Assembly (NCBI GenBank): GCA_035528575.1
Contig: DATKYK010000044.1
Coordinates: forward strand, 1 to 64,000
Reading direction: 5' to 3'
Source: Dehalococcoidia bacterium
GTDB lineage: Bacteria > Chloroflexota > Dehalococcoidia > E44-bin15
DNA length: 64,000 nt
Shown: one piece after another, positions 6,650-56,014 of the stretch
Layout of the letters: every line of letters begins with the position of its first letter
How positions within the stretch are numbered: position 1 is the stretch's first letter
Program-made: the position numbers and the translations under genes
The notes under the pieces: generated by a model
The model's database searches: none
Told to the model about the DNA's origin: nothing
The model's input: only the letters and a program-made list of their open reading frames with translations

Positions 6650-6670
6650 GCTATTAAAAGAACTGACTGA

Positions 6671-8058: not shown

Positions 8059-9255
8059 GTGAAAGCAAAGATAGTATATGTGGCATTAGCACTCGTGCTA
8101 GCCTTCTCGCTGGCGGCGGTGATAGTGCCGGCTAGTCCTGCGCAGGCAGCTACTTTATGTGTTAATCCAAGTGGGACGGGTGGTTGTTACAGTTCCATTC
8201 AGGCTGCAATCGATGCTGCTAATCCTGCAGGTGGCGATACAATCGTCGTAGCAGCGGGGACATATAATGAGAATGTAATCGTCAGCGTAGCGAACCTGAC
8301 CCTACGAGGTGCCAATGAAGGAAAATCTGCTGGCGCCAATCCTGAAACCAGAGGGTCCGAGTCGATCATCATCGGAGGTATTACGATTCAATTCAACGAT
8401 GTGGTTATCGATGGTTTTCGGATCGATAGTACTGGATCTTCAGGCATCTATATCAATGGTGGTACCAGTGGGCACACTATCTCCAACAACGTAGTATATG
8501 GACCCGGGATTGGCGTTAACGCACGTGGTATCGAATTCAGTTCCAGCACATCCAACATCGTTGTCAGCGATAACGAGTTCACAAACTGGATGAGTGGTAT
8601 TTACGTGGGTCCGTCCAGCAACAACGACCTTGAGGTTACAGGTAATGACTTCCACGACAACCTTGTCGGTATTGGTTCAGATGGATTGAACAATGTGAGC
8701 ATCCAGAACAACGACTTCAGCGGCAACACGGCGGAAGGATTTGGGTGTTCGAACGTTGGCACCAATGTCCAGGCACACAACAATAACTTCTATCTCAGCA
8801 ATAACGCTGGGATTAACAACTACTTCAGCGACCCCTCCGCTCAAATAATCGATGCCACGGACAACTGGTGGGGACATGCCACAGGACCTTATGATGGCTC
8901 AGATGACATAGGTGGCTGGTACAACCCCCTTGGTCAGGGCGTCCCAGTCAGCGACAAGGTGAAGTACGAGCCATACCGAGTCGAAGAAGTTGATGGCGGG
9001 GGTGGCTGCTTCATCGCCACCGCTGCCTACGGCACAGCGAGCGCTGCGGAAATCGACGTGTTGCGGGCCTTCAGGGATGAGGTGCTGCTGGAAAGCACAG
9101 TGGGCTCTCAACTCGTGGATTTCTATTATGAGGTTAGCCCTCCAGTGGCGGATTTCATATCAGAGAATGATGTGTTAAGGACTTTGGTCAGGGAGCTCCT
9201 GGTTGACCCCATTGCTTCGTTAGTGGAAGCCACGGAGACTCTCTGGCAAGATTAA
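8059..9255 (+). CDS. Secreted right-handed beta-helix protein with CFI-box C-terminus
   Basis: About 398 residues. A signal peptide (hydrophobic core, then PASPAQA-A cleavage-like site) leads into a segment with CVNPSGTGGCYSSIQAAIDA, typical of NosD/pectate-lyase-like repeats. Many parallel beta-helix rungs follow (about 60-290, periodic ISNNxV, VSDNEF, VTGNDF, IQNNDF). The last 80 residues carry the CFI-box domain ([10 protein letters not shown]) nearly identical to that ending at 1536. I chose the GTG at 8059 because AAAGGGGG stands eight bases before it; an in-frame ATG at 8038 is an alternative without a Shine-Dalgarno. Likely a surface carbohydrate-binding or modifying protein; no catalytic residues identified. 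Confidence 0.8.
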   Translation: MKAKIVYVALALVLAFSLAAVIVPASPAQAATLCVNPSGTGGCYSSIQAAIDAANPAGGDTIVVAAGTYNENVIVSVANLTLRGANEGKSAGANPETRGSESIIIGGITIQFNDVVIDGFRIDSTGSSGIYINGGTSGHTISNNVVYGPGIGVNARGIEFSSSTSNIVVSDNEFTNWMSGIYVGPSSNNDLEVTGNDFHDNLVGIGSDGLNNVSIQNNDFSGNTAEGFGCSNVGTNVQAHNNNFYLSNNAGINNYFSDPSAQIIDATDNWWGHATGPYDGSDDIGGWYNPLGQGVPVSDKVKYEPYRVEEVDGGGGCFIATAAYGTASAAEIDVLRAFRDEVLLESTVGSQLVDFYYEVSPPVADFISENDVLRTLVRELLVDPIASLVEATETLWQD

Positions 9256-9276
9256 AGCACCAGCCAAGCGAATTAT

Positions 9277-9312
9277 GGGGGGCTACCCGAGACGGGTGGC
9301 CCCTTTGTTATA
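9277..9312 (+). terminator. Terminator hairpin, repeat copy C
   Basis: GGGGGGCTACCCG pairs with CGGGTGGCCCC around an AGA loop (9277-9303), followed by TTTGTTAT. It ends the beta-helix gene and is the best-formed copy of the hairpin repeat seen at 1827 and 2795. Confidence 0.7.
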
Positions 9313-9518
9313 TAGCCTTTGGCATTGAAAGATTATTTCCACAGGAGTATCCTTGCCACATGAAACTCGATTTCGACTCCACCTACGTGTAGAAATAGGG
9401 AAATGATTAGTCAAAATGTATTTCAAGCCGATTGATGAAATGTCTTTACGCCATCTATTCTCTTCTCCTTGGGGAGAAAAGACATTGAAAATGTCGTATT
9501 GATGAGGGGGATCCAGGT

Positions 9519-10205
9519 ATGAAGCTGATTTTTATTCATGGCTCAGGCGGCTGCAAGGAAGCCTGGCACTACCAGACGAGTCACTTTCCCGCTGCCGATG
9601 TTATCGATCTCCCCGGCCACCCCGAGGGCGAGCCGCGCACCAGCGTTGAGGGCTATGTGGAGTGGCTGCGGGGATACATTCAGGATTTTGGCTATAGCGA
9701 TGTCGTGCTGGCAGGCCACTCGCTGGGCAGTGCCATAGCTCAGCTTTATGCCCTGAAATATCCTGAAGATTTGAAGGGGCTCATTCTCATCGGCAGCGGC
9801 GCCAGGCTCCGCGTCCATCCCCTGTACCTCAAGATGCTGGAGAAGGCTAAAGACGAACCCGGTATGCTCGAGGCTTTCTTCGAAATGTCACAGGGGCCTA
9901 TCAACCCTGAACTCATGGAGGTGCTCCGGAGGAGGGCTCTGGAGAATGGCCCTGCCGTTTTCCTCAACGATATGCTCTGCTGCGACAAGTTCGACATCAT
10001 GGATCGGGTTCATGACATCAGGCTGCCGACCCTGGCTCTGTGTGGCAGCGAGGACACAATGACCCCACCGAAATACACCAAATACCTCGCCGATAAGATC
10101 GGGGGAGCCAGGGAGGTAATTATCGACGGGGGCACCCATATGGTCTTTGCTGAAAAGCCCAGAGAGGTCAATCAGGCTATCGATAACTTCCTGAGTAGCC
10201 TTTGA
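9519..10205 (+). CDS. Alpha/beta hydrolase (serine nucleophile)
   Basis: 228 residues. HGSGG oxyanion segment near residue 7, nucleophile elbow GHSLGS (Ser about residue 67), acid in GSEDTMTPP and catalytic His in GGTHMV near the C-terminus. No lid domain beyond about 60 residues between strands 6 and 7, and no signal peptide, so a small cytoplasmic esterase, thioesterase or C-C hydrolase; substrate unknown. The ATG follows GGGGATCC at a suitable distance. Monocistronic. Confidence 0.8.
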   Translation: MKLIFIHGSGGCKEAWHYQTSHFPAADVIDLPGHPEGEPRTSVEGYVEWLRGYIQDFGYSDVVLAGHSLGSAIAQLYALKYPEDLKGLILIGSGARLRVHPLYLKMLEKAKDEPGMLEAFFEMSQGPINPELMEVLRRRALENGPAVFLNDMLCCDKFDIMDRVHDIRLPTLALCGSEDTMTPPKYTKYLADKIGGAREVIIDGGTHMVFAEKPREVNQAIDNFLSSL

Positions 10206-10567
10206 GAAATGATTTAGGTCTGGCTATCAAACCAAAGGCATCCGAGTTCTGGAGGATAGCACGGTTCTGAGTAACACATCTCCCGGCATTGGGGAGCTAG
10301 ATGACAACCATACAAAGCCCCTGCGTTTCAGGTGGGACTTTATCCTATAAGCTTTGTTAATTGACCTAACCAACTATCCGCGCTTCCCCGATAAGTATCC
10401 AAAAAGATCGCCCCCCCAAGGATCCCCCCATATTCCCTATTCCAACATCCTTATCTCGACCTACATTCTCTCTATATGATGGCTACTACTATCGCCGGGG
10501 TGGGATTTATGCAGGATGGGTAAGGTTGGCCCTGAAAGTCTCTCGGCAGAGACGGAGAGTTAGGAGG
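10206..10567. other. Intergenic stretch, no gene seen
   Basis: Only a CTCCC/GGGGAG hairpin at about 10280-10300 without a T-run stands out. No coding frame. Confidence 0.4.
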
Positions 10568-10597
10568 TTGACAGAGTGCAACCCGACAGGGTATAAC
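10568..10597 (+). promoter_or_regulatory. Promoter for the Cys-rich membrane protein
   Basis: TTGACA at 10568-10573 and TATAAC at 10592-10597, spacer 18. The start codon at 10629 is about 30 bases downstream. Confidence 0.55.
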
Positions 10598-10628
10598 CAA
10601 TTCTGCCAACTGGCAAGAAAAGGGAGAC

Positions 10629-11327
10629 ATGGAAGCGGAGAGAATTAAGGGCAAGAATCCATATAATATCTGCACCTGGGACGAAGGTGCAGATTGCGCC
10701 AACTGCATCAATCATAATGTATTGCACTGCAAATGGGACAGGAAAGCTCTAACCAGATTTCTCATCCTCGCCCTAATCTTCATGATCATGGCCTTTTTCG
10801 GGCTGACAGTCACCGCAATCTTGACCGGGGCGTGGTGGCCGCTGATAGCATACGGGGTATTCTATGTCGTTTTCTTCCTGTTCTTTGAAATACGAATACT
10901 CTGCTGCCACTGCCCCTTTTATGGCGAAGGAGGCAAGATCCTGCATTGCATCGGTAATCACGGAGCGCCCAAGATATGGCATTACCGTCCCCAACCAATG
11001 AACCAGTTCGAAAGGGTAAGCCTGATAATAGGTTTCATCTTCTTCGGCGGATTCCCCATCGCGGTTGAAGGCTGCGGCATCGGGTTCATAACCTACAACT
11101 ACGGAGAGTACGGTCAGCTCGCCCTCCTGGGAATGATCGGGGTCGTGCTGGCAACTTTATTGACATTGATCGCCTTCGGCTCGATTCTGATACTTTTCGT
11201 GTGTCCCAGCTGCATAAATTTCTCCTGCCCCCTTAACAGGACCCCCAGAGAGAATATAGATGAATACCTCAACCGGAATCCCTTCCTGAAGAAGGCATGG
11301 GAGGAAAATGGGCCAAGGGGGGCTTGA
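10629..11327 (+). CDS. Cys-rich four-helix membrane protein, unknown function
   Basis: 232 residues. Two hydrophobic pairs (about 40-90 and 130-195) are flanked by cysteine motifs: CTWDEGADCANC near the N-terminus, CCHCPFYG after helix 2, and CPSCINFSCPLN after helix 4. The pattern suggests several metal or Fe-S sites on the cytoplasmic face of a membrane protein (inference). I recognise no named family. AGGGAGA lies before the ATG. A dodecin gene follows with its own promoter overlapping the stop codon. Confidence 0.65.
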   Translation: MEAERIKGKNPYNICTWDEGADCANCINHNVLHCKWDRKALTRFLILALIFMIMAFFGLTVTAILTGAWWPLIAYGVFYVVFFLFFEIRILCCHCPFYGEGGKILHCIGNHGAPKIWHYRPQPMNQFERVSLIIGFIFFGGFPIAVEGCGIGFITYNYGEYGQLALLGMIGVVLATLLTLIAFGSILILFVCPSCINFSCPLNRTPRENIDEYLNRNPFLKKAWEENGPRGA

Positions 11328-11353
11328 CAGGACAGTATATTGTGGTGTATAAG
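11324..11353 (+). promoter_or_regulatory. Promoter for dodecin
   Basis: TTGACA at 11324-11329 overlaps the TGA of the preceding gene; TATAAG at 11348-11353, spacer 18. Confidence 0.55.
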
Positions 11354-11388
11354 TTAGTCTCATAAATTGCCATGAAAGGAGGAAAGTT

Positions 11389-11604
11389 ATGGCAGAGAGT
11401 GTCTACAAGATCATTACACTGGTGGGGACAAGCCCCGAGTCATGGGAGAAGGCTGCCGCCAATGCAGTGGCTACGGCTGCAAAGTCCCTGCGCGACCTTC
11501 GTATCGCCGAGATCGACGAGCTTGATATGCAGATCGAGAACGGCAAGGTGACCAGCTACCGTGCCAAGGTAAGGATCTCCTTCAAGTACCAGGGCGGCGA
11601 CTAA
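11389..11604 (+). CDS. Dodecin family flavin-binding protein
   Basis: 71 residues, the usual dodecin length. VYKIITLVGTSPESWEKAAA at the start, then a helix and two strands ending in the AKVRISFKY segment, is the characteristic dodecin layout. Dodecins form hollow dodecamers that store flavin (or CoA in some members). The Trp at about residue 19 sits where flavin-stacking Trp occurs later in archaeal members, so ligand choice is uncertain. A strong AAAGGAGGAAAG precedes the ATG. Confidence 0.88.
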   Translation: MAESVYKIITLVGTSPESWEKAAANAVATAAKSLRDLRIAEIDELDMQIENGKVTSYRAKVRISFKYQGGD

Positions 11605-11701
11605 GCTGTTCCACCGGCGGTAAAGCCGCAGAGCCAGACACCATCACCACTGATGGAAAAAGGCCCTGAACAGGTAGTTTTGCCCATTGCTACCCGCCGA
11701 G

Positions 11702-11738
11702 GCAAAAAGAAAAGAGGGGACAATTACAATCCCCTCTT
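11702..11738 (-). terminator. Intrinsic terminator of the zinc-ribbon gene
   Basis: AAGAGGGGA (11712-11720) pairs with TCCCCTCTT (11730-11738). On the minus strand the hairpin is followed by TCTTTTT (11702-11711). On the plus strand TTCCTTT follows, so it may act weakly in both directions for the converging dodecin transcript. Confidence 0.65.
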
Positions 11739-11755
11739 CCTTTATGTTGCCCTGC

Positions 11756-12064
11756 TTAACTTCGGGTCTGCAGCCTGACCTTGGCGTAGCACTCGTTGCA
11801 ATACACCGGTCTTCCCTGTCGGGGCTCGAAGGGTACCTTCGTGTCTTTACCACACTCGGCGCATGTAGCAGAATGCATTTCCCTCTGCCTCTGATAGCCA
11901 TAGCCATCCCCATCGCGCTGTTGTCTCCTGGCCGATCGGCATTCAGGACAACGCTTGGGCTCATTGGTAAATCCCCTGGAAGCAAATAGCTCCTGTTCAT
12001 CTGCGCTAAAAGTGAAACTGACGCCACAATCCGCGCATTCGAGGGTCTTCTCTACGTAGTCCAT
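11756..12064 (-). CDS. Small zinc-ribbon protein (two CxxC pairs, twice)
   Basis: About 102 residues with two zinc-ribbon modules. The first has CADCG and CPECR (about residues 10-40); the second has CAECG and CNECY (about 68-92), separated by a Gln/Arg-rich linker. This matches the small CxxC-CxxC zinc-ribbon proteins common in Chloroflexi and other anaerobes; role unknown, perhaps nucleic-acid or ribosome-related. I chose the ATG at 12064 because AAAGGAGG sits six bases before it; the TTG at 12070 would abut the Shine-Dalgarno. Confidence 0.75.
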   Translation of the reverse strand: MDYVEKTLECADCGVSFTFSADEQELFASRGFTNEPKRCPECRSARRQQRDGDGYGYQRQREMHSATCAECGKDTKVPFEPRQGRPVYCNECYAKVRLQTRS

Positions 12065-12190
12065 GGACAACCTCCTTTCCTTTATGACTTGGTCTCAGCT
12101 TGGTCATCCATGGCCCTGGGGAACTCGCGAGGAATCACACAGGTTGGGAAAAACCTACTTTGAACCAGATGTTTCAGCATATCATAAAAT

Positions 12191-12329
12191 TGAACATTCT
12201 GTCAAGTTGTTGCTGTGCGATGTCCAGGACATACTATACACTTTTCATTCTATGGATGCAGTGAGTATATTGATTTTCCTAAACATGTAATGTATCATCA
12301 AACCCACAATACAAATGGGAGGTGACAGG
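12191..12329 (+). promoter_or_regulatory. Repeated Usp promoter cassette, copy 1
   Basis: This stretch up to the start codon is about 90 percent identical to 17191-17331, upstream of the other tandem-Usp gene, and partly to 15618-15692. It holds TTGCTG (12210-12215), the palindrome TGTCC-A-GGACA (12221-12231), and TACTAT (12232-12237). The palindrome thus fills the spacer of a possible promoter, ideal for an operator. The regulator is unknown. Confidence 0.6.
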
Positions 12330-13232
12330 ATGTACAAGAGAATACTTGTTCCACTTGACGGTTCGTATTTGGCTGAGATCGCCTTACCCTACGCGGAAGA
12401 GATCGCATGCTACCTAAATTCTGATGTGACTCTCATACGTGTTGCTGAGTCAGAAGATGATACCTACGACCACATGCATCGAGTATATATAGATAAAATG
12501 GTTGAGGTTACTAGACAGAATCTCCAGAAATTTCACGAGAAAATAGGGGGGGAACCGATTAATGTGAACTCAGTCTTTTTAGCAGGCAATGTCGCTGAAG
12601 AGATTGTGGACTATGCTGAGAATCAACAGAGTGGTTTAATCATAATGGCTACTCACGGTCGTTCTGGTATAAGACGCTGGTTATTGGGAAGCGTGGCATC
12701 CAAGGTAGTGAGTGCGACAGAACAACCTGTATTGCTTATCAGGGCTAAGAAAAAGGATGCTATCCCCAAAGGGCACAAGAAGCGCCTCATAAAGAAGATA
12801 CTGGTGCCATTGGATGGATCAAAGGTGAGTGAAGCAGTTATTCCCTATATAATGGAGCTAGCATCAAGGCTTAAAGCAGAAGTAACCTTCTTTCACGTGA
12901 TTGCGCCGGTCTACTTCTTTTACAGCATTCCAGGAGAAGCTGTAAATCGGTCCTATAGCCCAGAGGATATGATCAATTTAATGACGAGGAATGAGACGTA
13001 TTTGGATACGGTGGGAGTAGAATTTAAGGACAAAGGAATAAAGACGAAGTCTAAGGTTGTAGTTGGGGTTCCAGCTGATGAAATTATCAGGACAGCTGAT
13101 GAAACACGGGCAGATGTCGTTGCCATGTCAACGCATGGTTATTCCGGCATCAATCGTTGGACATTGGGAAGCACTGCAGATAAAGTTCTCCATGCAGGGA
13201 ACACTCCACTCCTACTGGTGAGGCCACACTAA
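12330..13232 (+). CDS. Tandem universal stress protein (two UspA domains)
   Basis: About 300 residues: domain 1 about 1-145, domain 2 about 155-300. Each starts with a KRILVPLDGS-like strand and ends with the ATP-binding pattern G-x2-G-x9-G-S/T (ATHGRSGIRRWLLGS and STHGYSGINRWTLGS). Tandem Usp proteins bind ATP and respond to oxygen, redox or energy stress in related organisms; cytoplasmic. I chose ATG 12330, eight bases after GGAGGTGA; the upstream ATG at 12315 overlaps the Shine-Dalgarno and is absent in the paralog at 17332. Confidence 0.88.
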   Translation: MYKRILVPLDGSYLAEIALPYAEEIACYLNSDVTLIRVAESEDDTYDHMHRVYIDKMVEVTRQNLQKFHEKIGGEPINVNSVFLAGNVAEEIVDYAENQQSGLIIMATHGRSGIRRWLLGSVASKVVSATEQPVLLIRAKKKDAIPKGHKKRLIKKILVPLDGSKVSEAVIPYIMELASRLKAEVTFFHVIAPVYFFYSIPGEAVNRSYSPEDMINLMTRNETYLDTVGVEFKDKGIKTKSKVVVGVPADEIIRTADETRADVVAMSTHGYSGINRWTLGSTADKVLHAGNTPLLLVRPH

Positions 13233-13283
13233 AACTTAAATAGAATCTGGGTCAACAAATTAGAGCTAAGGAGTAAAGGGTTG

Positions 13284-13931
13284 ATGAATGATATAAAATG
13301 CCACGAGCTACTTTTTCCTCGCATGACTGTAGGGGTAATGGGGTCAGCTGGCGGAACGCTGCCGGATGAAGTACGGCAGTCGTTGCGTCACCTTGGTGCC
13401 GAAATAGCCAGAAGGGGTTACGTCCTCGTGACCGGGGCCTGCCCTGGATTGCCGCACGAAGCTGTTAAGGGTGCCAAAGCAGAAGGAGGGGTTGTGGTAG
13501 GGGTTTCTCCTGCCCTGAACTTGGAAGAGCATGTAATCAAGTATTATTCGCCTACCTTCGGCTATGATGCCATCATTTACACGGGAAGTGGCCTCATGGG
13601 GCGGGAAATAGATAATATTAGAAGCTGTGATGTAGTCATCTTTGCCGGGGGTCGCTCCGGGACGCTGGGGGAGTTTGCCATCGCCTACGATGAGGGAAAA
13701 GTCATTGGGATTATGGAAAGCACGGGAGGAATAACGAAGCACTTAAGGAATATAGTCGCAATGGTTAAGAAGGACACCGGAGCGATCATATGCTCCGATA
13801 GTGATCCCGAGCGTCTCTTAGACCAACTGGAGAACGTTTACAAGGAACAAATTTTTCCACGATACTTGAAAATCATGAATGGTCATGACCCTGATGGCCT
13901 GCTTGAGCCTAGCCCTGCCGGTCTTATTTGA
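13284..13931 (+). CDS. LOG / TIGR00725-like Rossmann nucleotide-binding protein
   Basis: About 215 residues. GVMGSAGG near the N-terminus and GGRSGTLGEFAIA (about residue 120) are the two SLOG/LOG nucleotide-binding motifs; in true Lonely-Guy phosphoribohydrolases the second is PGGxGTxxE. It may therefore hydrolyse nucleoside monophosphates or only bind a nucleotide. A shorter paralog is at 36283-36765. Start ATG 13284 with AAGGAG ten bases upstream; a TTG codon immediately before is the alternative. It follows the tandem Usp gene by about 50 bp and may be cotranscribed. Confidence 0.75.
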   Translation: MNDIKCHELLFPRMTVGVMGSAGGTLPDEVRQSLRHLGAEIARRGYVLVTGACPGLPHEAVKGAKAEGGVVVGVSPALNLEEHVIKYYSPTFGYDAIIYTGSGLMGREIDNIRSCDVVIFAGGRSGTLGEFAIAYDEGKVIGIMESTGGITKHLRNIVAMVKKDTGAIICSDSDPERLLDQLENVYKEQIFPRYLKIMNGHDPDGLLEPSPAGLI

Positions 13932-14018
13932 AGTAATTACTTGGTGACCACCGAGTTACGTGAGAATGGACTGTGCAAACATTATTACTGATGAACTACT
14001 AATCACGTCTTTTGAGTT

Positions 14019-15425
14019 ATGCATAACAAGCTACATTTTCTAGGCGCGGCACAAAATGTTACTGGCTCGCGGTATCTAATCAAGGCCAACAACGTCAGGT
14101 TTCTGGTAGACTGCGGGCTTTACCAGGAGAGGAAGTACATATATAGAAACTGGGACCCGTTTCCTATTCCTCCAAACACCCTCGATGCTGTGCTTCTTAC
14201 CCACGCTCACCTCGACCATTGCGGCCTTTTACCCAAGCTGGTACGCGAAGGATTTCGCGGTCGTATTGTCAGTACAGCTGCAACTGCCGACATTACTCAA
14301 ATCATGCTTATGGATTCTGCAAAGATCCAAGAAGAAGATGCAGAGCACAAGATAAAAAGGCATGAGCGAGAGAGAAGAAAAGGTCTCTATCCGGAGGTAC
14401 CGCTTTACACACCGGCTGATGCGAAGGCTTGTTGCTCTCTTCTCTCTCCGGTTCGTTACGGTGAGCCCGTACTTATAGGTAACAGTGTTTCTGCTACTTT
14501 CCACGATGCTGGCCACGTCCTAGGATCATCGATGATATTGGTCAATATAGGCCAAAATGGAGAAAAGAGAAGTGTACTATTCTCCGGAGACGTTGGGCGT
14601 TGGAATAAACCTATACTCCGAGATCCGACACTATTTAACGAAGCTGACTATGTACTTATTGAATCCACCTACGGCGACAGATTACACGAGGACTCTGAGA
14701 GCGTAACCAATCAGTTGGCGGAGGTTATTAACTCGACCGTACAAGCCCGAGGGAATATAGTAGTCCCTAGTTTCGCTCTCGAGCGGTCTCAGGAAGTTCT
14801 CTACTACCTGAATAAACTGCTTATGGAGAGGCGTATACCTCATCTAATGGTTTTCCTCGATAGCCCAATGGCTGTGGGCATCACGGATATCTTCGAAAAA
14901 CATCCTGAATTATATGACAGTGATATGCTGGAATTAATCCGAAAGGGAAGTTCACCGTTCGACTTCCCCGGTCTCACAATGGTTAGGGAGACAGATCAGT
15001 CAAAGGCGATAAACAACATAACTGGAAGTACAATGATAATAGCTGGCTCTGGCATGTGCACTGGAGGCAGGGTAAAGCATCACCTTGTGACAAACATCTC
15101 ACGGCCAGAGTGCACGATTCTGTTTATTGGGTATCAAGCTATAGGAACTCTGGGAAGACTTATCGTAGACGGTGCTCGGAAAGTTAGGATATTGGGAAAG
15201 GAATACCCGATTAGAGCGAAAATAGCTCAGATAAACGGTTTCTCTGCCCACGCTGACAGGGACGAACTGTTCCAGTGGTTGTCGAGTTTAAATAGGCCGC
15301 CTACGCAAATATTCGTTGTCCATGGCGAGCCAGAAACGGCGTTGCAGTTTGCTGATTTTCTCACGGAAAGAACTGGATGGAATATATCAGTCCCAGAGTA
15401 CGGGAATGAGTCAATTCTAGACTAG
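14019..15425 (+). CDS. MBL-fold / beta-CASP exoribonuclease-like protein
   Basis: 468 residues. MBL motif THAHLDHCG (about residue 68), later metal ligands in DAGHVLGS and SGDVGRW, and the beta-CASP part with STYGDR, SFALERSQE, a SGMCTGG segment and the C-terminal GFSAHAD. This is the short form without KH domains, akin to bacterial homologues of CPSF73 that process or degrade RNA. The zinc ligands all appear present. Weak Shine-Dalgarno before the ATG. Confidence 0.88.
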   Translation: MHNKLHFLGAAQNVTGSRYLIKANNVRFLVDCGLYQERKYIYRNWDPFPIPPNTLDAVLLTHAHLDHCGLLPKLVREGFRGRIVSTAATADITQIMLMDSAKIQEEDAEHKIKRHERERRKGLYPEVPLYTPADAKACCSLLSPVRYGEPVLIGNSVSATFHDAGHVLGSSMILVNIGQNGEKRSVLFSGDVGRWNKPILRDPTLFNEADYVLIESTYGDRLHEDSESVTNQLAEVINSTVQARGNIVVPSFALERSQEVLYYLNKLLMERRIPHLMVFLDSPMAVGITDIFEKHPELYDSDMLELIRKGSSPFDFPGLTMVRETDQSKAINNITGSTMIIAGSGMCTGGRVKHHLVTNISRPECTILFIGYQAIGTLGRLIVDGARKVRILGKEYPIRAKIAQINGFSAHADRDELFQWLSSLNRPPTQIFVVHGEPETALQFADFLTERTGWNISVPEYGNESILD

Positions 15426-15617
15426 TATGTAGCACGGGAATACGTTTCCAAGTTCGAGATTGTGACACCATGATCAGAAGTAAAGGAGTCTGAGTTTTGT
15501 ATCTACAGAGGGTCTAAAACGCGATATCGACACCTCAACTCGTGGAGAATCAAGAGGATTCCACTTCAGGAACCCCCGTTTTCGAGCATAACTGGGCAAA
15601 ATGGCAGGAGCAACAAA

Positions 15618-15692
15618 ATGTCAAGTTGTTGCTGTGCAGTGTCCAGGACATACTATACACTTTGCATTCCATGTATACAGTGAGTATATTAA
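15618..15692 (+). repeat. Repeated Usp promoter cassette, copy 2 (orphan)
   Basis: About 75 bp matching the core of the copies at 12191 and 17191, including TGTCC-A-GGACA at 15640-15650 and TACTATACAC. No Usp gene follows; the homology ends at about 15692 and an intrinsic terminator lies at 15730. It could drive a short transcript, be the scar of a lost Usp gene, or belong to the oxidoreductase gene about 320 bp away. Confidence 0.6.
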
Positions 15693-15729
15693 GAGAGACT
15701 GCTGAAATAGTCTCAATCAACCCCCTAAT

Positions 15730-15754
15730 CCCCCAATCTTGGGGGACTTTTTAA
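15730..15754 (+). terminator. Intrinsic terminator
   Basis: CCCCCA-ATCT-TGGGGG (15730-15745) followed by ACTTTTT. A second palindrome CCCCGATACATCGGGG follows at about 15760-15775. The next roughly 230 bp to the start at 16011 hold no gene that I recognise. Confidence 0.65.
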
Positions 15755-16010
15755 AGCTGCCCCGATACATCGGGGAGACCCCCGGCAGGAAGTATCCTGC
15801 ACCTCTTTTTTAGCGGTCTCTAAGAATACCCTGGAGTCACTGGGGATTAACCGAGACCAAATGGAGTGGAAGAAGTATGAGACCTGGACCCCGTATAAAA
15901 GTCGCTGGACAGTCTAGAAGCTTCGCCTTAACATCCGGTTGTGTTATCATTATTACGCTTATCTGGCTGCCACTCTTATGGTGCTACCTGCTATCATTAT
16001 GGAAACTGTC

Positions 16011-17159
16011 ATGGCTGGAAGAGAAGGTTCGATAGCGTTTCAAACGGGGGAAATCGGGGGCATGAAGCTCAAGAACCGCCTGGTGCGCTCCGCGACCTTC
16101 GAAGCCATGGCCACCGATGATGGCAAGGTCACGAACGCTCAGGTGGAACTCTACCGTACCCTGGCCGAAGGTGGCGTGGGCCTCATAATCACCGGGCATG
16201 CGGCTGTGCATCTTGGCTGGTCAGCCGGGCGGCACATGACCCGAATATCAGATGATTCTTTCATACCTTTGGTCAGGAAGATTGCCAGAGCTGTGCACGA
16301 AGTCGGCAACAACTGCAGGGTCGTTCTACAATTAACTCAGTTTGGAAGGCAATGCGGAATACAATGCCTCAAACCCCTGGTGGAACCAGTCGCGCCATCA
16401 GCGGTCTACGATACGCTATTCAAGCGCACGCCGAGGGAGCTTACTTCGGAGGAGATAGACGAGATTATCGAGTGCTTTTCCCAGGCAATACTGAGAGCCA
16501 GGCAGGCTGAGTTCGACGGCGTGCAACTGCACGCTGCCCATGGCTACCTCTTATCCTCTTTCCTATCACCACATACCAACCGGAGGGAGGACGAATACGG
16601 CGGAAGCACTCAAGGGCACGCCATGATTATGAAAGAGATATATGAGCGCGCTACCCGAAAGGTCGGGGATGACTTCCCCATACTGGTCAAGATAAATAGC
16701 GATGACCTTTTCCCCGGGGGAATCGACGCAAATGAGGCGACGAGAATAGCAGAAGAACTTGCCAGGATAGGGTACACGGCCATAGAGGTCAGCGGTGGAA
16801 CCTGGGAAGCCATTACCAGAAGCAAAGAGGAACTGGGGTGGAAGCCCGTACTGCTTCCCGAGTCGAAGGTTGGTATAAAAACCAAGGAACAGGAGGCTTA
16901 TTTCTGGGAAGCCGCCAAAAGGATTAAGAAAAAGGTAGCTATCCCGATCATCCTTGTAGGAGGGATTAAGTCTATCGACAAAATCGAGGAAATATTAAAA
17001 GAGGGCAGTGTGGACTTCTGCTCAATGGCGAGGTCTCTGATTAGAGAGCCGGATCTGCCCAATCGCTGGCTCCAGGGAATGGGGAGCGAGACAGCTAAAT
17101 GCAAGTCATGCAACGCTTGCATCCCGATAGACGAGCCCTTGAAATGCAAAGGTAATTGA
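16011..17159 (+). CDS. Old Yellow Enzyme-type NADH:flavin oxidoreductase
   Basis: About 382 residues forming a FMN-binding TIM barrel: LKNRLVRSATFE at the N-terminus, the barrel motif HAAHGYLLSSFLSPHTN with active-site His (about residue 180), NRREDEYGG, and the phosphate site VGGI near the end. The C-terminus has CKSCNACI and a later Cys, reminiscent of the cluster ligands in 2,4-dienoyl-CoA reductase, but the protein lacks the FAD/NAD domain of those enzymes. The ATG at 16011 gives the normal family start. The longest frame begins at a TTG at 15939 and ATG 15999 is also possible; none has a good Shine-Dalgarno. Confidence 0.82.
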   Translation: MAGREGSIAFQTGEIGGMKLKNRLVRSATFEAMATDDGKVTNAQVELYRTLAEGGVGLIITGHAAVHLGWSAGRHMTRISDDSFIPLVRKIARAVHEVGNNCRVVLQLTQFGRQCGIQCLKPLVEPVAPSAVYDTLFKRTPRELTSEEIDEIIECFSQAILRARQAEFDGVQLHAAHGYLLSSFLSPHTNRREDEYGGSTQGHAMIMKEIYERATRKVGDDFPILVKINSDDLFPGGIDANEATRIAEELARIGYTAIEVSGGTWEAITRSKEELGWKPVLLPESKVGIKTKEQEAYFWEAAKRIKKKVAIPIILVGGIKSIDKIEEILKEGSVDFCSMARSLIREPDLPNRWLQGMGSETAKCKSCNACIPIDEPLKCKGN

Positions 17160-17190
17160 ACTTAGAAGGGACATAAGAGCATAACCTTGA

Positions 17191-17331
17191 ATTGAACATG
17201 CTGTCAAGTTGTTGCTGTGCGGTGTCCGGGACATACTATACACTTTTCATTATATGGATACAGTGAGTATATTGATTTTTCTAAACATGTAATGTATCAT
17301 CAAGCCCACAATACAAATAGGAGGTGACAGG
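17191..17331 (+). promoter_or_regulatory. Repeated Usp promoter cassette, copy 3
   Basis: Near-identical to 12191-12329 over its whole length, up to the Shine-Dalgarno. The palindrome TGTCC-G-GGACA is at 17223-17233; the central base differs from the other copies but the dyad is kept. The spacing to the downstream start codon is conserved too. Confidence 0.6.
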
Positions 17332-18258
17332 ATGTACAAGAGGATGCTCGTTCCATTGGACGGTTCAGAGCTAGCCGAACTGGTCTTCGGTTACGCAAAA
17401 GAACTTGCGGGGAGGTTAGATCTAGATTTAATTCTGCTTCATGTCTCTGGATCCAGTGAACACGACTTGCTCCCAATACATCGAGCCTATATCGAGCGGG
17501 CAGCTGAGATTCTGAGGCGTCAGTCAGCAGAGGTTCAGGAAAAGACAAGAAGTAAACCCGGGGGTAAAGCAGTAGAAGCACAAGGTGAATTAGTGGTGGG
17601 CCACCCTGCTGAAGAGATTCTTCGTTATGCCGGTGAGAATAATATCGACCTGATACTCATGGCGACCCATGGTCGGTCCGGGGTTAAGCGCTGGGCTTTG
17701 GGGAGCGTAGCTGACAAGGTGCTCCGCGCATCAAAGGTACCTGTTTGGCTTGTCAGAGCCGGTATCCCGGGAGAAGTCGTCCACGACAAATGGCCAAGGA
17801 GAACGCTGCTGGTTCCCCTTGATGGCTCAAAGCTCGCTGAATCTGTACTCCCCCATGTTGAAGCGCTGGCAAAACAGCGGGGTACAGAGTTGGTGGATGT
17901 GGTTCTGCTCCGAGTTTGTGAACTTCCCGTTATTTCGGCTGATTACCCAGAGGCGATCATGGAATTGAGCTGGGAAGAGCATGTGGAGCAGGAAAAGGCA
18001 TGGCATAAGCGGGCAGCTGAGAGGTACCTGGCTGAAGTTGAGAAGCGGCTTAGTGATGCTGGCCTAAAGGTACGGTCAGAAATATTACTGGGAAGACCAA
18101 TCGATGAAATCATTGAGTACGCGAATAAAAATCCGTTCAATCTCATTGTTCTATCAACCCACGGGCGCACTGGAGTAATACGGTGGGCTTATGGCCAAGT
18201 TGCTGATAAGGTACTGCAAAGAAGCACCAGCCCCATATTCCTGGTAAGGCCACACTAA
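17332..18258 (+). CDS. Tandem universal stress protein (two UspA domains)
   Basis: 308 residues and a paralog of the protein at 12330. Two UspA domains (about 1-145 and 158-308) carry ATP-binding ends ATHGRSGVKRWALGS and STHGRTGVIRWAYGQ. In the second domain the usual G-S/T after the nine-residue gap is G-Q, so ATP binding there may be weakened. AGGAGGTGACAGG precedes the ATG. Its promoter region duplicates that of the paralog, which suggests joint regulation. Confidence 0.88.
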   Translation: MYKRMLVPLDGSELAELVFGYAKELAGRLDLDLILLHVSGSSEHDLLPIHRAYIERAAEILRRQSAEVQEKTRSKPGGKAVEAQGELVVGHPAEEILRYAGENNIDLILMATHGRSGVKRWALGSVADKVLRASKVPVWLVRAGIPGEVVHDKWPRRTLLVPLDGSKLAESVLPHVEALAKQRGTELVDVVLLRVCELPVISADYPEAIMELSWEEHVEQEKAWHKRAAERYLAEVEKRLSDAGLKVRSEILLGRPIDEIIEYANKNPFNLIVLSTHGRTGVIRWAYGQVADKVLQRSTSPIFLVRPH

Positions 18259-18471
18259 AACCCAAATACAATCTGGGTCAGGCCTAAGATAGGGGTTGCG
18301 TGTGTTACGTTGTACATTCAATTCCGAGGAGCTCATCGCTGCACATGTAGAAATAATGCGGGGAAGGCAAAGTCATATGGCATCAAATTCTCCCAGGATT
18401 GGTTTAGAGAAATATAAAACAAGAGATAGAAAACCTGATTCCAGGATGGCCGGTGGAGTGAGAGAGATAAG

Positions 18472-19299
18472 ATGAGTAGAGGGATGCTTGACGATTCTGA
18501 TTGGGAAAAAGTTGACCAGAAAATCCCTGATTTAGATAATCTTCAAGACATGACAAATATTTGCTTTCCCGATTCTTTATCCATAGCTTTCTCGCACCAA
18601 AGCAATGTTCCTATAGCGTCAGTTTGCTTACGAGAAGCGGCAGACACCCTCTTAGACGCTCGATATGCGCTAAGAGAAATCTTTGCCCATAGGATATGGT
18701 ACTTGGAGAAGACGAAGCCGCCAGACAATATATCCGCAAATTCCTTCGGACTATACTACGCAGATGATGCGGTATTGCGGCTATATTCAGCCGGAGAGCA
18801 CCTTGCAAGCGGAATCATTATGATGCTGGATATTACTGACGAAGACTTGAAGCCCTTTAAGCGTAAAGGAAAGCAAGGGAATGAGAAAAGCAGCAAGCAA
18901 ATATATGTTGGACACTATCTCCGCGATAAAATGAAGGATCACCCAATCACAAAAGCAATAATTAAGCTTGCAGACTCAAAAGATTGGGAAAAGACACGAA
19001 ATCACAGGGATAAGTGGGTACACGAGCAACCACCTACAGTAAAAGAGCTGGGAAGATTTTACGAGCGATTGATAAGATGGGAATCTTCACCGACAGGAAA
19101 AGGCTATACACTCCGTGGTGGCAGAGATGAACCGGAATACTCTATTGATGAGATTTTAGGATTTATACAATCGGCCATGTTTAAGTTTACGGATACATTG
19201 ACCTTTGTCTTTAATTTCTATATAGACTTGCTCAGGTCTAGGGGATTAAACTTAACATTCGACAAAACTTCCAGCACCATAGGCGTAAAGATATTCTAG
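18472..19299 (+). CDS. Hypothetical protein, possible HEPN-like (Cthe_2314-type) helical protein
   Basis: 275 residues, mostly alpha-helical by composition. The segment RNHRDKWVHEQ (about residues 181-191) contains an R-x4-H arrangement like the catalytic motif of HEPN RNases, and the helical layout with a long C-terminal helix recalls Cthe_2314-like HEPN proteins. That assignment is tentative. Codon and base use is AT-richer than the genes to the right. The purine-rich stretch before the ATG is a weak Shine-Dalgarno. An unrecognised gene follows in the same direction. Confidence 0.55.
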   Translation: MSRGMLDDSDWEKVDQKIPDLDNLQDMTNICFPDSLSIAFSHQSNVPIASVCLREAADTLLDARYALREIFAHRIWYLEKTKPPDNISANSFGLYYADDAVLRLYSAGEHLASGIIMMLDITDEDLKPFKRKGKQGNEKSSKQIYVGHYLRDKMKDHPITKAIIKLADSKDWEKTRNHRDKWVHEQPPTVKELGRFYERLIRWESSPTGKGYTLRGGRDEPEYSIDEILGFIQSAMFKFTDTLTFVFNFYIDLLRSRGLNLTFDKTSSTIGVKIF

Positions 19300-19521
19300 C
19301 AACCAACATTGTCTTAGCGGATGCTATCGGATATTATGCACATGGGTAATTCTTAAAAAGAAACTTTAAGCCTTGAAAATAAATGTTCCAAATGCGAGTT
19401 TGAAAAATAAAAACAGTCTTTATAGCCACCGCCGCTGCGGGACAGTAACCGGGCTGTGGAGTACGCTGAGAATATAGCCGATTCCGTTAAGAATGGCAGT
19501 AAAATATATAAGGATGAATGT

Positions 19522-19971
19522 ATGGAACTCGGAGAATTAGAGGTAAGTCTTGACAGTTCGGCTTCGGCTGAGGATGTAGCTGCCGTCAGAGAAGCGTTCA
19601 ATGATGCCGGGTTAATGGCCACAGTGCGTCCTTCATTCGAACGCAAAGGTATTGGTGATTTTCCGTGGATTGTGCTGTTCACAGCTCCGCTCACAGCTTT
19701 CCTTATGGCATTTGCTGCCGCAGCCGGCAAGGATTCTTACGAGGGACTGAAGAAGCTCGTACACACAATATGGGCCAAACGCACAAAAACCTCTGGCCCG
19801 TCAGGTAGTTTCACCATCATAGATAGTACATCGGGAGTCTGGGTATTGCTCGACCCAGGTATCACTGACGATGCCTATAGTGCTCTTACCAAGCTTGATT
19901 TGGATTCACTGCAGGGACCAGGCGTTCTTAAGTACGATAAGGACGAGAAGCGATGGATACAATTGCCTTGA
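19522..19971 (+). CDS. Hypothetical protein with one membrane segment
   Basis: About 149 residues. The first half (ELEVSLDSSASAEDVAAVRE, then FNDAGL) looks like a small ferredoxin-like alpha/beta module. A hydrophobic stretch rich in Ala and Leu (about residues 53-72) follows, then a C-terminal beta-rich part (FTIIDSTSGVWVLLDPG). Start ATG 19522 is chosen because AAGGA stands seven bases before it; an upstream GTG at 19456 would add 22 residues without a Shine-Dalgarno. Similar modules occur next to effector domains in conflict systems, but I cannot name the family. Confidence 0.5.
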   Translation: MELGELEVSLDSSASAEDVAAVREAFNDAGLMATVRPSFERKGIGDFPWIVLFTAPLTAFLMAFAAAAGKDSYEGLKKLVHTIWAKRTKTSGPSGSFTIIDSTSGVWVLLDPGITDDAYSALTKLDLDSLQGPGVLKYDKDEKRWIQLP

Positions 19972-20296
19972 TTGGTCGCTCTGGCAGCTTAAATCACTTG
20001 TGAATATAACACGCCCATTTGTCTTGTTAATCACTACTGCACGTTCCGTCAGTTTGTGTAGCTGTCTGCCTCCATCTTCCAATCCGCCTGACCATTGCCA
20101 AAACTGCTGCTCTCTGAAGAAGGAATGTACATCGACGGCTCCAAGGCAAAGAGGGATCTGGGGTAGGAACCGAAGGTTTCGTTAGAGGAGGTTACCGGGT
20201 TCTATGTCAAGCAGCGAAGGTCGCAGGGTAAGAGATAATCCGGTGATCACTATCCATTTATGCGGTCTGATTGGAGAGGAAGCGGTAATCAGTCTA
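19972..20296. other. Intergenic stretch between converging genes
   Basis: No gene seen. Minus-strand translations give short broken pieces around 20060-20160 that could be a decayed gene, but nothing nameable. Confidence 0.35.
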
Positions 20297-51875: not shown

Positions 51876-53396
51876 ATGTTTAAGAGAATTACTGACGATC
51901 TCGATGCACTGCTAGAGCGGCTGCCTCCCCACATTGCGCAGCCGCTCCGGGAGCGGGAGAACAGCAGCGAGCTCCTGGAGGTTATATTGGACCTGGGTCG
52001 CCCACCCGAGGCCCGTTATCCTGACCGCGAGATAGTGCTCAGCAATAAGGAGGTCTCCCAGGAGGATATCGAATATATTGTTTCCCGTATCGCCCCCTTC
52101 AGCGATGACAATCGGGCCGGCATCGAGCGCACCCTGCACCGCATCTCCGCAATCAGAAACCGCGAGGGGCGCATCGTGGGGCTAACCTGCCGCGTCGGTA
52201 GAGCGGTATACGGCACCCTCGGTCTAATTGCCGACCTGGTTGAGTCGGGCAAGAGTATCCTGCTGCTGGGCGGGCCCGGTGTAGGTAAGACTACCATGCT
52301 TCGCGAGGTGGCCCGCGTGCTTGCCGACGACCTGAAGAAGCGCGTGGTGATTGTTGATACCTCCAACGAGATCGCCGGCGATGGCGACATCCCCCATCCC
52401 GCCATCGGGCACGCACGGAGGATGCAGGTGACCACCCCAAAGCTCCAGCACGCCGTAATGATCGAGGCGGTGGAGAACCACATGCCCGAGGTTATCGTCA
52501 TCGATGAGATCGGCACCGAGCTTGAGGCCCAGGCATCGCGCACCATCGCCGAGCGTGGGGTGCAGCTTATCGCCACCGCACATGGAAACACCCTGGGTAA
52601 CCTGATCATGAACCCCACCCTTTCCGATCTCATCGGCGGCATCCAGACGGTGACACTGGGCGATGAGGAGGCTAAAAGGCGGCGCACTCAGAAGTCCATT
52701 CTGGAGAGAAAGGTACCGCCCACCTTCGACATCGTGGTCGAGATTCAAGACTGGTATCACGTGGCGGTTCACTCCGATGTCGCTGAGATAGTCGATTCAA
52801 TGCTGCGCGGGTGTCCCATCCCTCCGGAGGTTCGCTGGATGGACGAGACCGCCGAGGTGAGAAGAGAGCAGATGAAACCTGCAGATGAGCCCTCGGCAAG
52901 AAAAGCGCTTGCCGGCACCACCACCAGAATCTACCCCTTTGGCATCAATCGCAGTCGTCTTGAGCAGGCGGTGAAGCGCCTGGAGCTACCGGCGAAGCTT
53001 GCTATCGACGTAAGTGGGGCCAATCTGCTGATGACCTCCAAGAGCTATTACCGAATGAAGCCGCAGCCCATTCGCGATGCCGAGGCCGCAGGCATCCCCA
53101 TCTACGTGCTTAAGAACAACAAGGCATCGCATATGGAGCGTTCCCTATTCAATATATTCGACATGGAAGCTACCGAAGAACCCATTAGCCTGGCAACGAA
53201 GGAGGCAGAGGAGGCCATCGCCCAGGTAATCGAGGGGCAAAAGACAGTGGAGCTCAGCCCGCAGAACTCCTACCTGCGTATGCTACAGCACCAGCTCGCC
53301 GAGCGCTACAAACTTTCCTCGAAGAGCACCGGCCGCGAGCCACGGAGACGCGTTCGCATTTTTCACACAGGCGATGTTGCGAAAGATGATAGGTAA
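51876..53396 (+). CDS. Ycf45/SpoIIIAA-like AAA ATPase with R3H domain
   Basis: 506 residues. Walker [10 protein letters not shown] (about residue 132), Walker B VIVIDEIG, and the RNase-like helical N-terminus form the SpoIIIAA/Ycf45 ATPase (about 1-320). A middle domain (about 350-430) and a C-terminal R3H domain ([15 protein letters not shown] with R-x3-H, about 465-500) follow. R3H binds single-stranded nucleic acid. Widely conserved in cyanobacteria, plastids and Chloroflexi; function poorly known. Its TAA overlaps the next ATG by one base. Confidence 0.88.
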
Positions 53397-53914
53397 TGGA
53401 AGGGTCTATCTATACAATAGGTCATAGCAATCATCCGTCTGAGACATTCGTACGGTTGCTGACTCAAACCGAAATAGAGGTTCTTGTCGACATACGGAGC
53501 AATCCTGGCAGCCAATGGGCCTCATACGCAAACCCGTGCGATTTGGAGCAGATTCTTAGGGCAGTTGGTATCCAGTATATCTATTTGGGCGATATGTTGG
53601 GAGGTCAGCCTGATGACCCAGACTGCTACAACCCACAAACAGGTAAAGCAGACTATAAAGAAATGCAAAAAAAAGAGTTCTTTAAACGAGGAATCAACCG
53701 ACTTTTAGAAGCCATGAAAACGTATCATATCTGCGTGATGTGTGCCGAAGAAAATCCTTCCTCTTGCCATCGCAACCTTCTAGTCAGCGAGAGCTTGCGG
53801 CGAGAAGATGTCAAAATCTTACATATCCGTGGAACAGGGCAGATTCAAACCGATGAAGAGCTTTGGAAAGAAAATGCAGGAGTAGGAAAAAATCAACTTC
53901 CACTTCCAATGTGA
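53396..53914 (+). CDS. DUF488 protein 1
   Basis: 172 residues. YTIGHSNHPSETF, VDIRSNPGSQWA, YIYLGDMLGGQP and the signature CAEENPSSCHR match DUF488. The conserved Cys/His/Asp set suggests an enzyme, but the reaction is unknown. Start ATG overlaps the preceding stop by one base. The base composition drops to clearly AT-rich from here to about 55335, unlike both flanks, which suggests an acquired cassette. Confidence 0.85.
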   Translation: MEGSIYTIGHSNHPSETFVRLLTQTEIEVLVDIRSNPGSQWASYANPCDLEQILRAVGIQYIYLGDMLGGQPDDPDCYNPQTGKADYKEMQKKEFFKRGINRLLEAMKTYHICVMCAEENPSSCHRNLLVSESLRREDVKILHIRGTGQIQTDEELWKENAGVGKNQLPLPM

Positions 53915-53922
53915 GGTTCTTG

Positions 53923-54360
53923 GTGACTATATACACAATTGGTTTTACCAAGAAATCCGCTCAAGAATTCTTTGAGACTCTACATAATAGTGGAGCGAAG
54001 CACCTCTTCGATATTCGTCTTCACAATAAATCGCAGTTGGCAGGTTTTGCAAAGGGCGACGATCTACGTTATTTTCTTGAACAAATCGTTGATATGGAAT
54101 ACCACGAAGTACCAATACTAGCACCCGAAGACTCACTTATAACTGAATACCGAAAAACAGGAGATTGGGCCAAATATGAGCAAAGCTACCTAGAGCTAAT
54201 TGGTCAACGACAAGTCGAACGCTATATAGACCTAACGTTATTTAAAGATGGCGTTGTCCTGCTTTGTAGCGAGGCTGAACCCCATCACTGCCACCGACGG
54301 CTGGCAGCAGAATATTTAGCAAGGTCAATACTAGTAGGTGCTAATATCAAACATCTATAA
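53923..54360 (+). CDS. DUF488 protein 2
   Basis: About 145 residues, a divergent second DUF488 copy: IYTIGFTKKSAQEFF, FDIRLHNKSQLAGFAK, and CSEAEPHHCHRRLAAEYL. I chose GTG 53923 with GAGG six bases upstream; GTG 53911 would overlap the previous stop (GTGA) but has no Shine-Dalgarno. Tandem unequal DUF488 proteins suggest a heteromer. AT-rich like its neighbours. Confidence 0.82.
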   Translation: MTIYTIGFTKKSAQEFFETLHNSGAKHLFDIRLHNKSQLAGFAKGDDLRYFLEQIVDMEYHEVPILAPEDSLITEYRKTGDWAKYEQSYLELIGQRQVERYIDLTLFKDGVVLLCSEAEPHHCHRRLAAEYLARSILVGANIKHL

Positions 54361-54372
54361 AATGGAATATTA

Positions 54373-55335
54373 ATGCATAAAACAATCGTGATAAGTGATC
54401 TGACAAAGATGGGGGGAGAAGGTGTTTGTATTGTTGGCATTGACCAAAATTACCAGAGTATCCGCCCCGTTTTGCCGCCACCTGGCGTCCTAAGAAAGCA
54501 TCTTTTCAAGGGAATAATTAGAAAGCGATTGGTTATTCGCCCAAAAGCTAAAATTACATTTGACTTCCACAAAGTCCCAATTGAACCTCCACATATTGAA
54601 GACTTGGGCTTTAATCCAAAGTCAATCGTTTATGAAGGTTTATGCACTGATGCTGAGTGGGAGAAATTGATAAAAGCAATTTCCTTTCGCTCTGTTCAGG
54701 ATATATATGATGACTATCTTAAAGAAGATCGTTGGGTGGAACCTGGAACGAATACCAGGTCTTTAGGAACAGTGTCACAGATACAAGTAATTAGTGTTAA
54801 TCTCCAAGAGAGGTCTGGCGAACGACGATACAGACTCTACTTCACTGACCAGACAGGCCACCAATATGACAATGTCACTATTTCTGACTTGGCATTTCGC
54901 GCACTCTGTGACGCGGAGCTAAATCGCCGTAGTTCCCTTCTGTCTGCTTCACAATGGATTACAGACCAACTTAAAAGCGTTGATCTCCTGTATCTCAATT
55001 TTGGCTTGGCTCGCCCCTGGGCGCCAAGTGATGGTAGCTTTGGCCCCCGCTGCTGGATGCAGGTTACTGGAATCTACACCTTTCCTGATTATTTGGGAGG
55101 AAAGTCATTTGCAGACTTTGAAACAACAATGCAACCCAGTAAAACGAAAGCGTATGATGTTGAGGAAATTCGGGCGGAACACCCAAAGGCATATACAAAA
55201 TGGACTGAAGAAGAGGATAACATTTTAAGAAACGAGTATTTTCGAGGCAAAACTGTTGAGGAATTAGCAAGTAAGTTACAAAGGAAACCAGGCGCTATTC
55301 GCTCTCGTTTGATAAGATTAGGTTTATTGAAGTAA
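54373..55335 (+). CDS. Dual OB-domain-like protein with C-terminal SANT/Myb-like helix-turn-helix
   Basis: 320 residues. The N-terminal 235 residues (VISDLTKMGGEGVCIVGID, SIRPVLPP, then LNFGLARPWAP and CWMQVTGIYTFPDYL) resemble the dual OB-containing domain found beside DUF488 genes. The last 50 residues (TKWTEEEDNILRNEYFRGKT and ELASKLQRKPGAIRSRLIRLG) are a SANT/Myb-like DNA-binding helix-turn-helix. A nucleic-acid-binding role in a DUF488-centred system is inferred. Weak GGAA Shine-Dalgarno. AT-rich. Confidence 0.7.
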   Translation: MHKTIVISDLTKMGGEGVCIVGIDQNYQSIRPVLPPPGVLRKHLFKGIIRKRLVIRPKAKITFDFHKVPIEPPHIEDLGFNPKSIVYEGLCTDAEWEKLIKAISFRSVQDIYDDYLKEDRWVEPGTNTRSLGTVSQIQVISVNLQERSGERRYRLYFTDQTGHQYDNVTISDLAFRALCDAELNRRSSLLSASQWITDQLKSVDLLYLNFGLARPWAPSDGSFGPRCWMQVTGIYTFPDYLGGKSFADFETTMQPSKTKAYDVEEIRAEHPKAYTKWTEEEDNILRNEYFRGKTVEELASKLQRKPGAIRSRLIRLGLLK

Positions 55336-55369
55336 CACCATGCAAAATAGCAATGAGCTGAGGTAACCA

Positions 55370-56014
55370 TTGTCATTATTCATCACATTTGAAGGCGGGG
55401 AGGGAGCGGGGAAGTCCACACAGGCGAGGGCGCTTCACCAGCGCCTTTCCAGTAAGGGCATCCCCGCACTGCTTACCCACGAGCCCGGGGGTACCCCTCT
55501 GGGCAGAGAGATCAGGCGCTGGCTCAAGGGGGAGAGGAACAACGAAACGGGGGATGTCGACCCACTCGCCGAGCTCTTGCTCTTCAATGCATCGCGTGCC
55601 GAGCTCGTCTCCAATGTGATTCAACCCGCCTTGAAGAGCGGGATCACCGTTATCTGCGACCGTTTCTACCACTCCACCGTCGCCTATCAGGGCTATGGCC
55701 GGGGCCTTTCCATCGACCTCATCGAGGCCGTCAATAACATCGCCACCGGCGGGCTGAAACCCGATCTTACTGTATTCCTAGACCTTACAATAGAACACGG
55801 TCTATCACGAAAAAAGCCAAGAGATCGCTTTGAGCGGGAGGAGCCTGACTTCCATAAGCGGGTGAGGCAGGGCTATCTGATGATAGTGAAGAAGGACCCC
55901 GAGCGCTGGCTGGTGATCGATGGCTCCCTGCCCAAAAAGGAGATCGAAAGCCTCATATTAGAGAGGATAGGGCAATTTCTTCCCAAAGTCGTAAAAAGGG
56001 TTGAAAAAAAGTAA
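55370..56014 (+). CDS. tmk: Thymidylate kinase
   Basis: 214 residues. P-loop FEGGEGAGKSTQA, EPGGTPLGR, CDRFYHSTVAYQGYGRG (DRY-like), and the lid LSRKKPRDRFE. It makes dTDP from dTMP. TTG start with GAGGT six bases upstream. The GC-rich composition resumes here. Promoter for the pyr leader overlaps its 3' end. Confidence 0.94.
   Translation: MSLFITFEGGEGAGKSTQARALHQRLSSKGIPALLTHEPGGTPLGREIRRWLKGERNNETGDVDPLAELLLFNASRAELVSNVIQPALKSGITVICDRFYHSTVAYQGYGRGLSIDLIEAVNNIATGGLKPDLTVFLDLTIEHGLSRKKPRDRFEREEPDFHKRVRQGYLMIVKKDPERWLVIDGSLPKKEIESLILERIGQFLPKVVKRVEKK

Follow-up and report, generated by a model that had tools for sequence, protein, structure and literature searches.

What are three compact, AT-rich genes doing between two core genes of a Dehalococcoidia genome, where did they come from, and do their products work together? 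The question is raised by positions 53396-55335 of the 64,000-nucleotide stretch of DNA analysed here (the window), where two DUF488 genes, termed B and C, and a DuOB-like gene follow one another in tight packing and in one direction, separated by 8 and 12 nt. An earlier note, made from the letters alone, had taken the three for a cassette of foreign composition that might have been acquired by transfer and might be an undescribed nucleic-acid system, set between an ATPase gene and tmk. The features of the locus are as follows.

51876..53396, + strand: SpoIIIAA/Ycf45-like ATPase with R3H, a host core gene outside the module (profile match; conserved across the family)
53389..53396, + strand: left junction (SpoIIIAA stop, one-base TAATG overlap)
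53396..53914, + strand: DUF488 subunit B (172 aa; Pfam PF04343 1.4e-21; PDC-M45B 4e-48; AF2 pLDDT 83)
53923..54360, + strand: DUF488 subunit C (145 aa; PF04343 5.6e-19; PF22751, DUF488-N3a; PDC-M45C 5.6e-57)
54373..55335, + strand: divergent DuOB protein (320 aa; DuOB residues 1 to ~250 and a C-terminal helical HTH, ~263-316; PDC-M45A slot)
54775..55053, + strand: mosaic segment of DuOB, second OB barrel (residues ~135-227; no blastn similarity to relative G116, 70% DNA and up to 83% aa identity to relative G279)
55159..55332, + strand: C-terminal HTH domain of DuOB (also in RecQ and PIF1-type helicases and in another DuOB-HTH lineage)
55370..56014, + strand: tmk, a host core gene outside the module (profile match; sister-genome comparison)

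Composition and Insertion Site of the Cassette

The start of C is the GTG at 53923, in agreement with its homologues; the TTG at 53863, given by a mechanical ORF call, is too early by the same comparison. Compared within the window, the cassette has a GC content of 0.427, against 0.532 ± 0.041 for 1.94-kb windows, and is the AT-richest stretch of that length bar one or two overlapping shifts. Third codon positions show the same, with a GC3 of 0.36-0.43 in the cassette genes against 0.60-0.72 in the four surrounding genes. In a search for a promoter or terminator of its own, the counts were near those in shuffles. Elsewhere in the window, positions 1-20000 hold many genes with low GC3 (0.43-0.60, against 0.6-0.75 further on), possibly another region of foreign origin or of lower expression.

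Pfam matches identify the flanking genes as the SpoIIIAA/R3H ATPase and tmk, as the earlier note had it. A SpoIIIAA-type match is found in 14/14 family genomes, partial or weak in two. The site is empty in the sister genome G087, in which the SpoIIIAA gene meets tmk with about 3 nt between them, and in G182, in which the contig ends inside SpoIIIAA, the last SpoIIIAA residues likewise abut tmk. G116 carries the same B-C-DuOB cassette at the same site, with a different junction that does not keep the one-base overlap. Other sisters hold other cargo here: a methyltransferase (G193), a DUF1848 gene with a methyltransferase-like gene (G019), a trypsin-like protein matching PADLOC PDC-S45 (G072), a PD-(D/E)XK "REase-ARP" nuclease (G150 and G171) or two divergent genes (G102). 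These alternating states indicate that the SpoIIIAA-tmk interval is an accessory-gene site and SpoIIIAA-R3H a core gene, not a partner. The cassette is an insertion between two co-directional core genes. The empty site, the deviant GC and GC3 and a decayed copy in another phylum (described below) together bear out the proposal of acquisition by transfer. The overlap with the SpoIIIAA gene, which had been read as a sign of coexpression, exists as TAATG, but the functional coupling does not hold up, as that gene is present across the family whether the cassette is there or not, its operon received the cassette by insertion, and the junction in G116 differs.

The AGGTA of the left junction is seen again near 55357-55362, at the right junction, and also in the empty site, and is possibly microhomology or a target duplication. 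No terminal inverted repeats, integrase or tRNA target were found at the cassette ends. Some further observations concern this site and its flanks. In locus L089 (G150:C108), and also in L073, what seems to be a second copy of about 35 bp of the tmk 5' end precedes the inserted REase-ARP gene, as though the tmk start had served as the target of that insertion. A T-arm-like sequence (AAGTTCGAATCCYGCTCAGGGA or similar) lies just past the SpoIIIAA stop in L066, L069, L071 and L072, at which ARAGORN finds no tRNA. Residues 351-428 of SpoIIIAA-R3H carry the Pfam label "Phosphotyrosine protein phosphatase" (PF25516, 1.4e-22), which is odd for such a protein.

The DUF488 Pair

DUF488 is a widespread family whose reaction is not settled. 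We take it to be a member of the rhodanese/phosphatase (RapZ-C/DUF488/DUF4326) clade, and a 2023 paper on rhodanese-phosphatases reportedly predicted that DUF488 proteins process DNA ends in conflict systems, in line with the mechanism preferred below. Both B and C belong to the DUF488 family, scoring 77.8 and 69.4 bits against PF04343 (cut-off 22.2), and their mutual identity is only ~24%, so that the "two unequal DUF488 genes" of the earlier note are just that. C also passes the cut-off of DUF488-N3a (PF22751; 37.7 bits versus 27), which Pfam labels "active", whereas B stays below it. The signature C-x-E..C-H-R that had been noticed in this family is kept by B, by C and by all aligned homologues. 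In the homologue alignment, the conserved residues of B are T-x-GHS, D-x-R-S, C116-x-E..P..C124-H-R and H143, and those of C are TIG, D-x-R, SQLAGF-x-K and C115-x-E..C123-H-R-R. The fold matches of the B model include the phosphatases 3gxh and 7mpc, all of them weak (E > 0.001), and a sequence search found no PDB chains similar to B or C. No activity of any module member is known to us or reported in the literature searched. The window genome (G000) holds a third, solitary DUF488 gene (L064 7388-7891, G000:C6).

The DuOB Protein, Its HTH Tail and a Mosaic Second Barrel

In a direct profile search, the third protein has no match to a Pfam OB family or to DuOB (PF22557), even at E = 10. Its kinship to DuOB becomes apparent through intermediate proteins (L052, L054-L057): by hhalign, the window DuOB group aligns to the intermediates with a probability of 99.9 and the intermediates to PDC-M45A with 97.6, whereas the direct alignment of the window group to PDC-M45A fails (2.3). 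L052 and L057 are over the Pfam DuOB cut-off, and the motifs C-x-x-G...IRPV and PPH-x-ED are common to the window protein and the Pfam family, in keeping with the dual-OB-like character first ascribed to this gene. In the AF2 model, of mediocre confidence (pLDDT 67), the second β-barrel is well formed (strands 132-235), the first barrel is poor and a helical domain occupies residues 263-316. The closest folds are dual-OB binders of single-stranded DNA (Teb1, LEF-3, CST, SSB, RPA), all weak, at E 0.0065 or worse.

The C-terminal domain had been labelled SANT/Myb, which could not be established: no SANT/Myb profile matches it, its only family matches are weak ones to sigma-70 region 4, and the model shows a helical HTH. 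In a PDB sequence search, the window DuOB gave a single weak match (E = 0.15), which falls on its HTH. The same HTH is carried by a RecQ protein of G279. In a second lineage (G191, G230), DuOB, HTH and a sigma-70-like tail are joined within complete B-C-DuOB loci. A PIF1-like helicase, read as such from its sequence (L030 1498-2958, G178:C17), also ends in this HTH, indicating that the domain is shared among DNA helicases.

The nearest relative of B, C and the two ends of DuOB is G116 (80-82% aa identity for B and C). For DuOB residues ~135-227, blastn detects no similarity to this same-site cassette, and the position of the segment is that of the second OB barrel of the model. G279, in contrast, matches the whole window cassette except the HTH at 70% DNA identity, and has 83% aa identity to it over DuOB residues ~121-165. 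The mosaic is supported by a permutation scan of site patterns (p = 0.001); the amino-acid tree test is borderline and merely suggestive (AU p 0.054), so that the scan is the stronger of the two. The simplest reading of these alignments is that a DuOB domain was exchanged. Rapid divergence confined to G116 is less likely, since the identity between the window genome and G279 is higher in the segment than in B (62%) or C (70%). A more far-reaching idea, which we regard as doubtful, is that the second barrel is an exchangeable recognition domain, comparable to a specificity subunit and swapped by recombination between otherwise stable cassettes; it would determine the DNA structure or invader against which the DUF488 heterodimer is directed, and the C-terminal HTH would be a lineage-specific docking part.

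Co-Location, Fusions and Relation to PDC-M45

Tabulated neighbourhoods bear out the idea of a three-gene cassette. Across the phylum, 24/30 DuOB loci have a DUF488 gene within their 1.5-kb flanks, and 22 of the 30 have two. Among the best 30 C loci in the class, 20 hold B and 18 hold both B and DuOB, with no C locus that has DuOB without B; C occurs without B in the other 10, indicating that it can act alone. Gene order varies (A-B-C, B-C-A). With only three DUF488 genes in a genome of 2.3 Mb, chance adjacency would be negligible. That B and C form a pair, as had been proposed, is further supported by a viral contig of IMG/VR (L185), in which B and C are fused into one protein of 377 residues, followed by an overlapping DuOB gene of the window type; this fusion is the best evidence that the two work together.

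A role in nucleic-acid transactions, also suggested before, gains support from several links to RecQ. G618 joins DuOB and an entire RecQ helicase (DEAD, Helicase_C, RQC, HRDC) in one protein, with a DUF488 gene upstream. In G086, a fragment of B and C are followed by a RecQ gene, and a REase-like gene lies upstream. The RecQ of G279 is PsyrT-like and, with a DprA-family gene, is found ~2-3 kb upstream of B-C-DuOB. The cassette shares this helicase link and, through G279, the HTH with PsyrTA/RqlH-type RecQ systems; unlike them, the window cassette itself has no helicase.

The notion of an "undescribed" system did not survive comparison with current libraries, as PADLOC PDC-M45, Pfam DuOB and DUF488-N3a already list its parts. 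PDC-M45 is a phage-defence candidate of PADLOC, and the literature searched held no anti-phage experiment on it. B and C match its PDC-M45B and PDC-M45C models in adjacent genes (E-values listed above), and the PDC-M45A proteins of this class belong to Pfam DuOB, which is the family of the third gene of the window as well. The PDC-M45A model itself has no match to the window DuOB at E <= 1. The window cassette further differs in its order (B-C-A) and its C-terminal HTH, and its A protein lies below the detection of Pfam as well. The B and C matches and the chain of intermediates make the cassette a divergent variant of a catalogued candidate and not an undescribed kind, and on these profile comparisons it is filed as a PDC-M45 variant, not a plain member. 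As far as can be told, what is new here is the DuOB-HTH variant, the insertion site and the mosaic second OB domain.

Mobility and Genomic Context

Complete modules are present on proteobacterial plasmids of Agrobacterium, Allochromatium and Rhodovastum. That of Agrobacterium adjoins CBASS genes, with an integrase nearby, and that of Allochromatium lies inside a type III CRISPR region; such neighbours support the defence or repair flavour that had been sensed in the cassette, as a candidate function. On two further plasmids, of Citrobacter and Acinetobacter, an mSLOG-DUF4326 protein occupies the position of B, a likeness to the rhodanese-phosphatase superfamily. A Syntrophaceae MAG contains a decayed copy, 79% identical in DNA over its best stretch, in which B is frameshifted, C internally deleted and DuOB fragmented, indicating transfer across phyla unless the MAG was wrongly binned. 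The window DuOB had no direct match among phage or plasmid records, and close DuOB alignment gave no viral contig; viral relatives came from the search with B instead.

Most of the 91 proteins that neighbour the Chloroflexota copies are metabolic; strong defence matches number roughly three, a figure read from tables that count families, not proteins. An association with defence islands in Chloroflexota was dropped for this reason. On an IncC plasmid of K. pneumoniae, pKp55 (L200 5001-5432), a lone PDC-M45C-type DUF488 gene adjoins a UvrA gene inside a formaldehyde-detoxification region, which is a lead for a role in DNA damage.

A Putative DNA-Processing Module and Its Alternatives

The cassette is inserted between core genes, its gene set is conserved, the motif residues of B and C are all kept, and DuOB is a separate partner. 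The reading that we prefer, at a probability of about 0.45, is a DNA-processing module of the PDC-M45 type, made of three components and gained by horizontal transfer, in which a B-C enzyme and DuOB are directed against invading DNA. B and C would pair into a single heterodimeric enzyme of the rhodanese/phosphatase clade, whose motif cysteine would act on a phosphorylated sugar or a terminal group. DuOB would bind single-stranded DNA through both of its OB barrels and bring B-C to exposed DNA ends, or to single strands opened by a RecQ-type helicase. The HTH of the window variant may provide the docking to duplex DNA that is done elsewhere by fused or neighbouring helicase domains. Processing of the ends would then block replication or repair of the invading phage or plasmid DNA and so act as defence.

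The DNA-processing part of this reading is supported by the DuOB-RecQ fusion, the locus of B-C with RecQ and a REase-like gene, the HTH of G279 and the weak folds of dual-OB binders. The phosphatases among the weak fold matches of B support the enzyme fold; the CBASS genes with integrase, the type III CRISPR region and DUF4326-mSLOG in place of B support a role in conflict; and GC, GC3, the empty site and the Syntrophaceae copy support transfer. Counted against it are the metabolic neighbours in Chloroflexota, the fold matches at E > 0.001, the DuOB pLDDT of 67 and the occurrence of C without B. The substrate may be RNA instead of DNA.

Defence is a plausible role of the module; protection of the cell's own DNA is a close alternative, and of defence and repair, defence is the more likely. 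A DNA-repair or damage accessory module, in which the DUF488 enzymes would clean blocked or modified ends after RecQ unwinding while DuOB holds the single strand, is possible, if on the unlikely side. It would account for the RecQ fusion and neighbour, for the lone C beside UvrA and formaldehyde genes and for the mostly housekeeping neighbours in Chloroflexota, but the patchy presence, the carriage by plasmids and viruses, the CBASS and CRISPR neighbours and the mosaic OB domain fit conflict better. It is improbable that the cassette is a system modifying bases or sugars of RNA or DNA, with B-C transferring a group and DuOB/HTH recognising the target: the rhodanese/phosphatase-like fold with its conserved cysteines and the layout of two enzymes and a binder suit such a system, yet none of the genes conserved alongside encodes a methylase, a nuclease or a sulfur-relay protein, and the site has no tRNA gene.

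The compact, mobile cassette, often without defence neighbours, could also call to mind a toxin-antitoxin-like or addiction module, persisting by harm to cells that lose it. We consider this very improbable, as none of its genes is an obvious toxin, C is found alone and a decayed copy persists. Hardly credible is a host-encoded operon partner of SpoIIIAA-R3H, to which the overlap in the window genome might point, given that SpoIIIAA is conserved without the cassette, that the site is empty or otherwise filled in sisters and that G116 has another junction.

The locus bears on the DUF488 family as a whole. It is a compact natural B-C-DuOB unit in which every conserved residue of the motifs is kept, with the empty site of a sister genome as a control and a natural B-C fusion in a relative, and the link to helicases narrows the likely substrate to DNA. 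Diverged DuOB genes are missed by current libraries, and the module is probably commoner than annotated. If the role in defence is true, a new enzymology would join anti-phage immunity.
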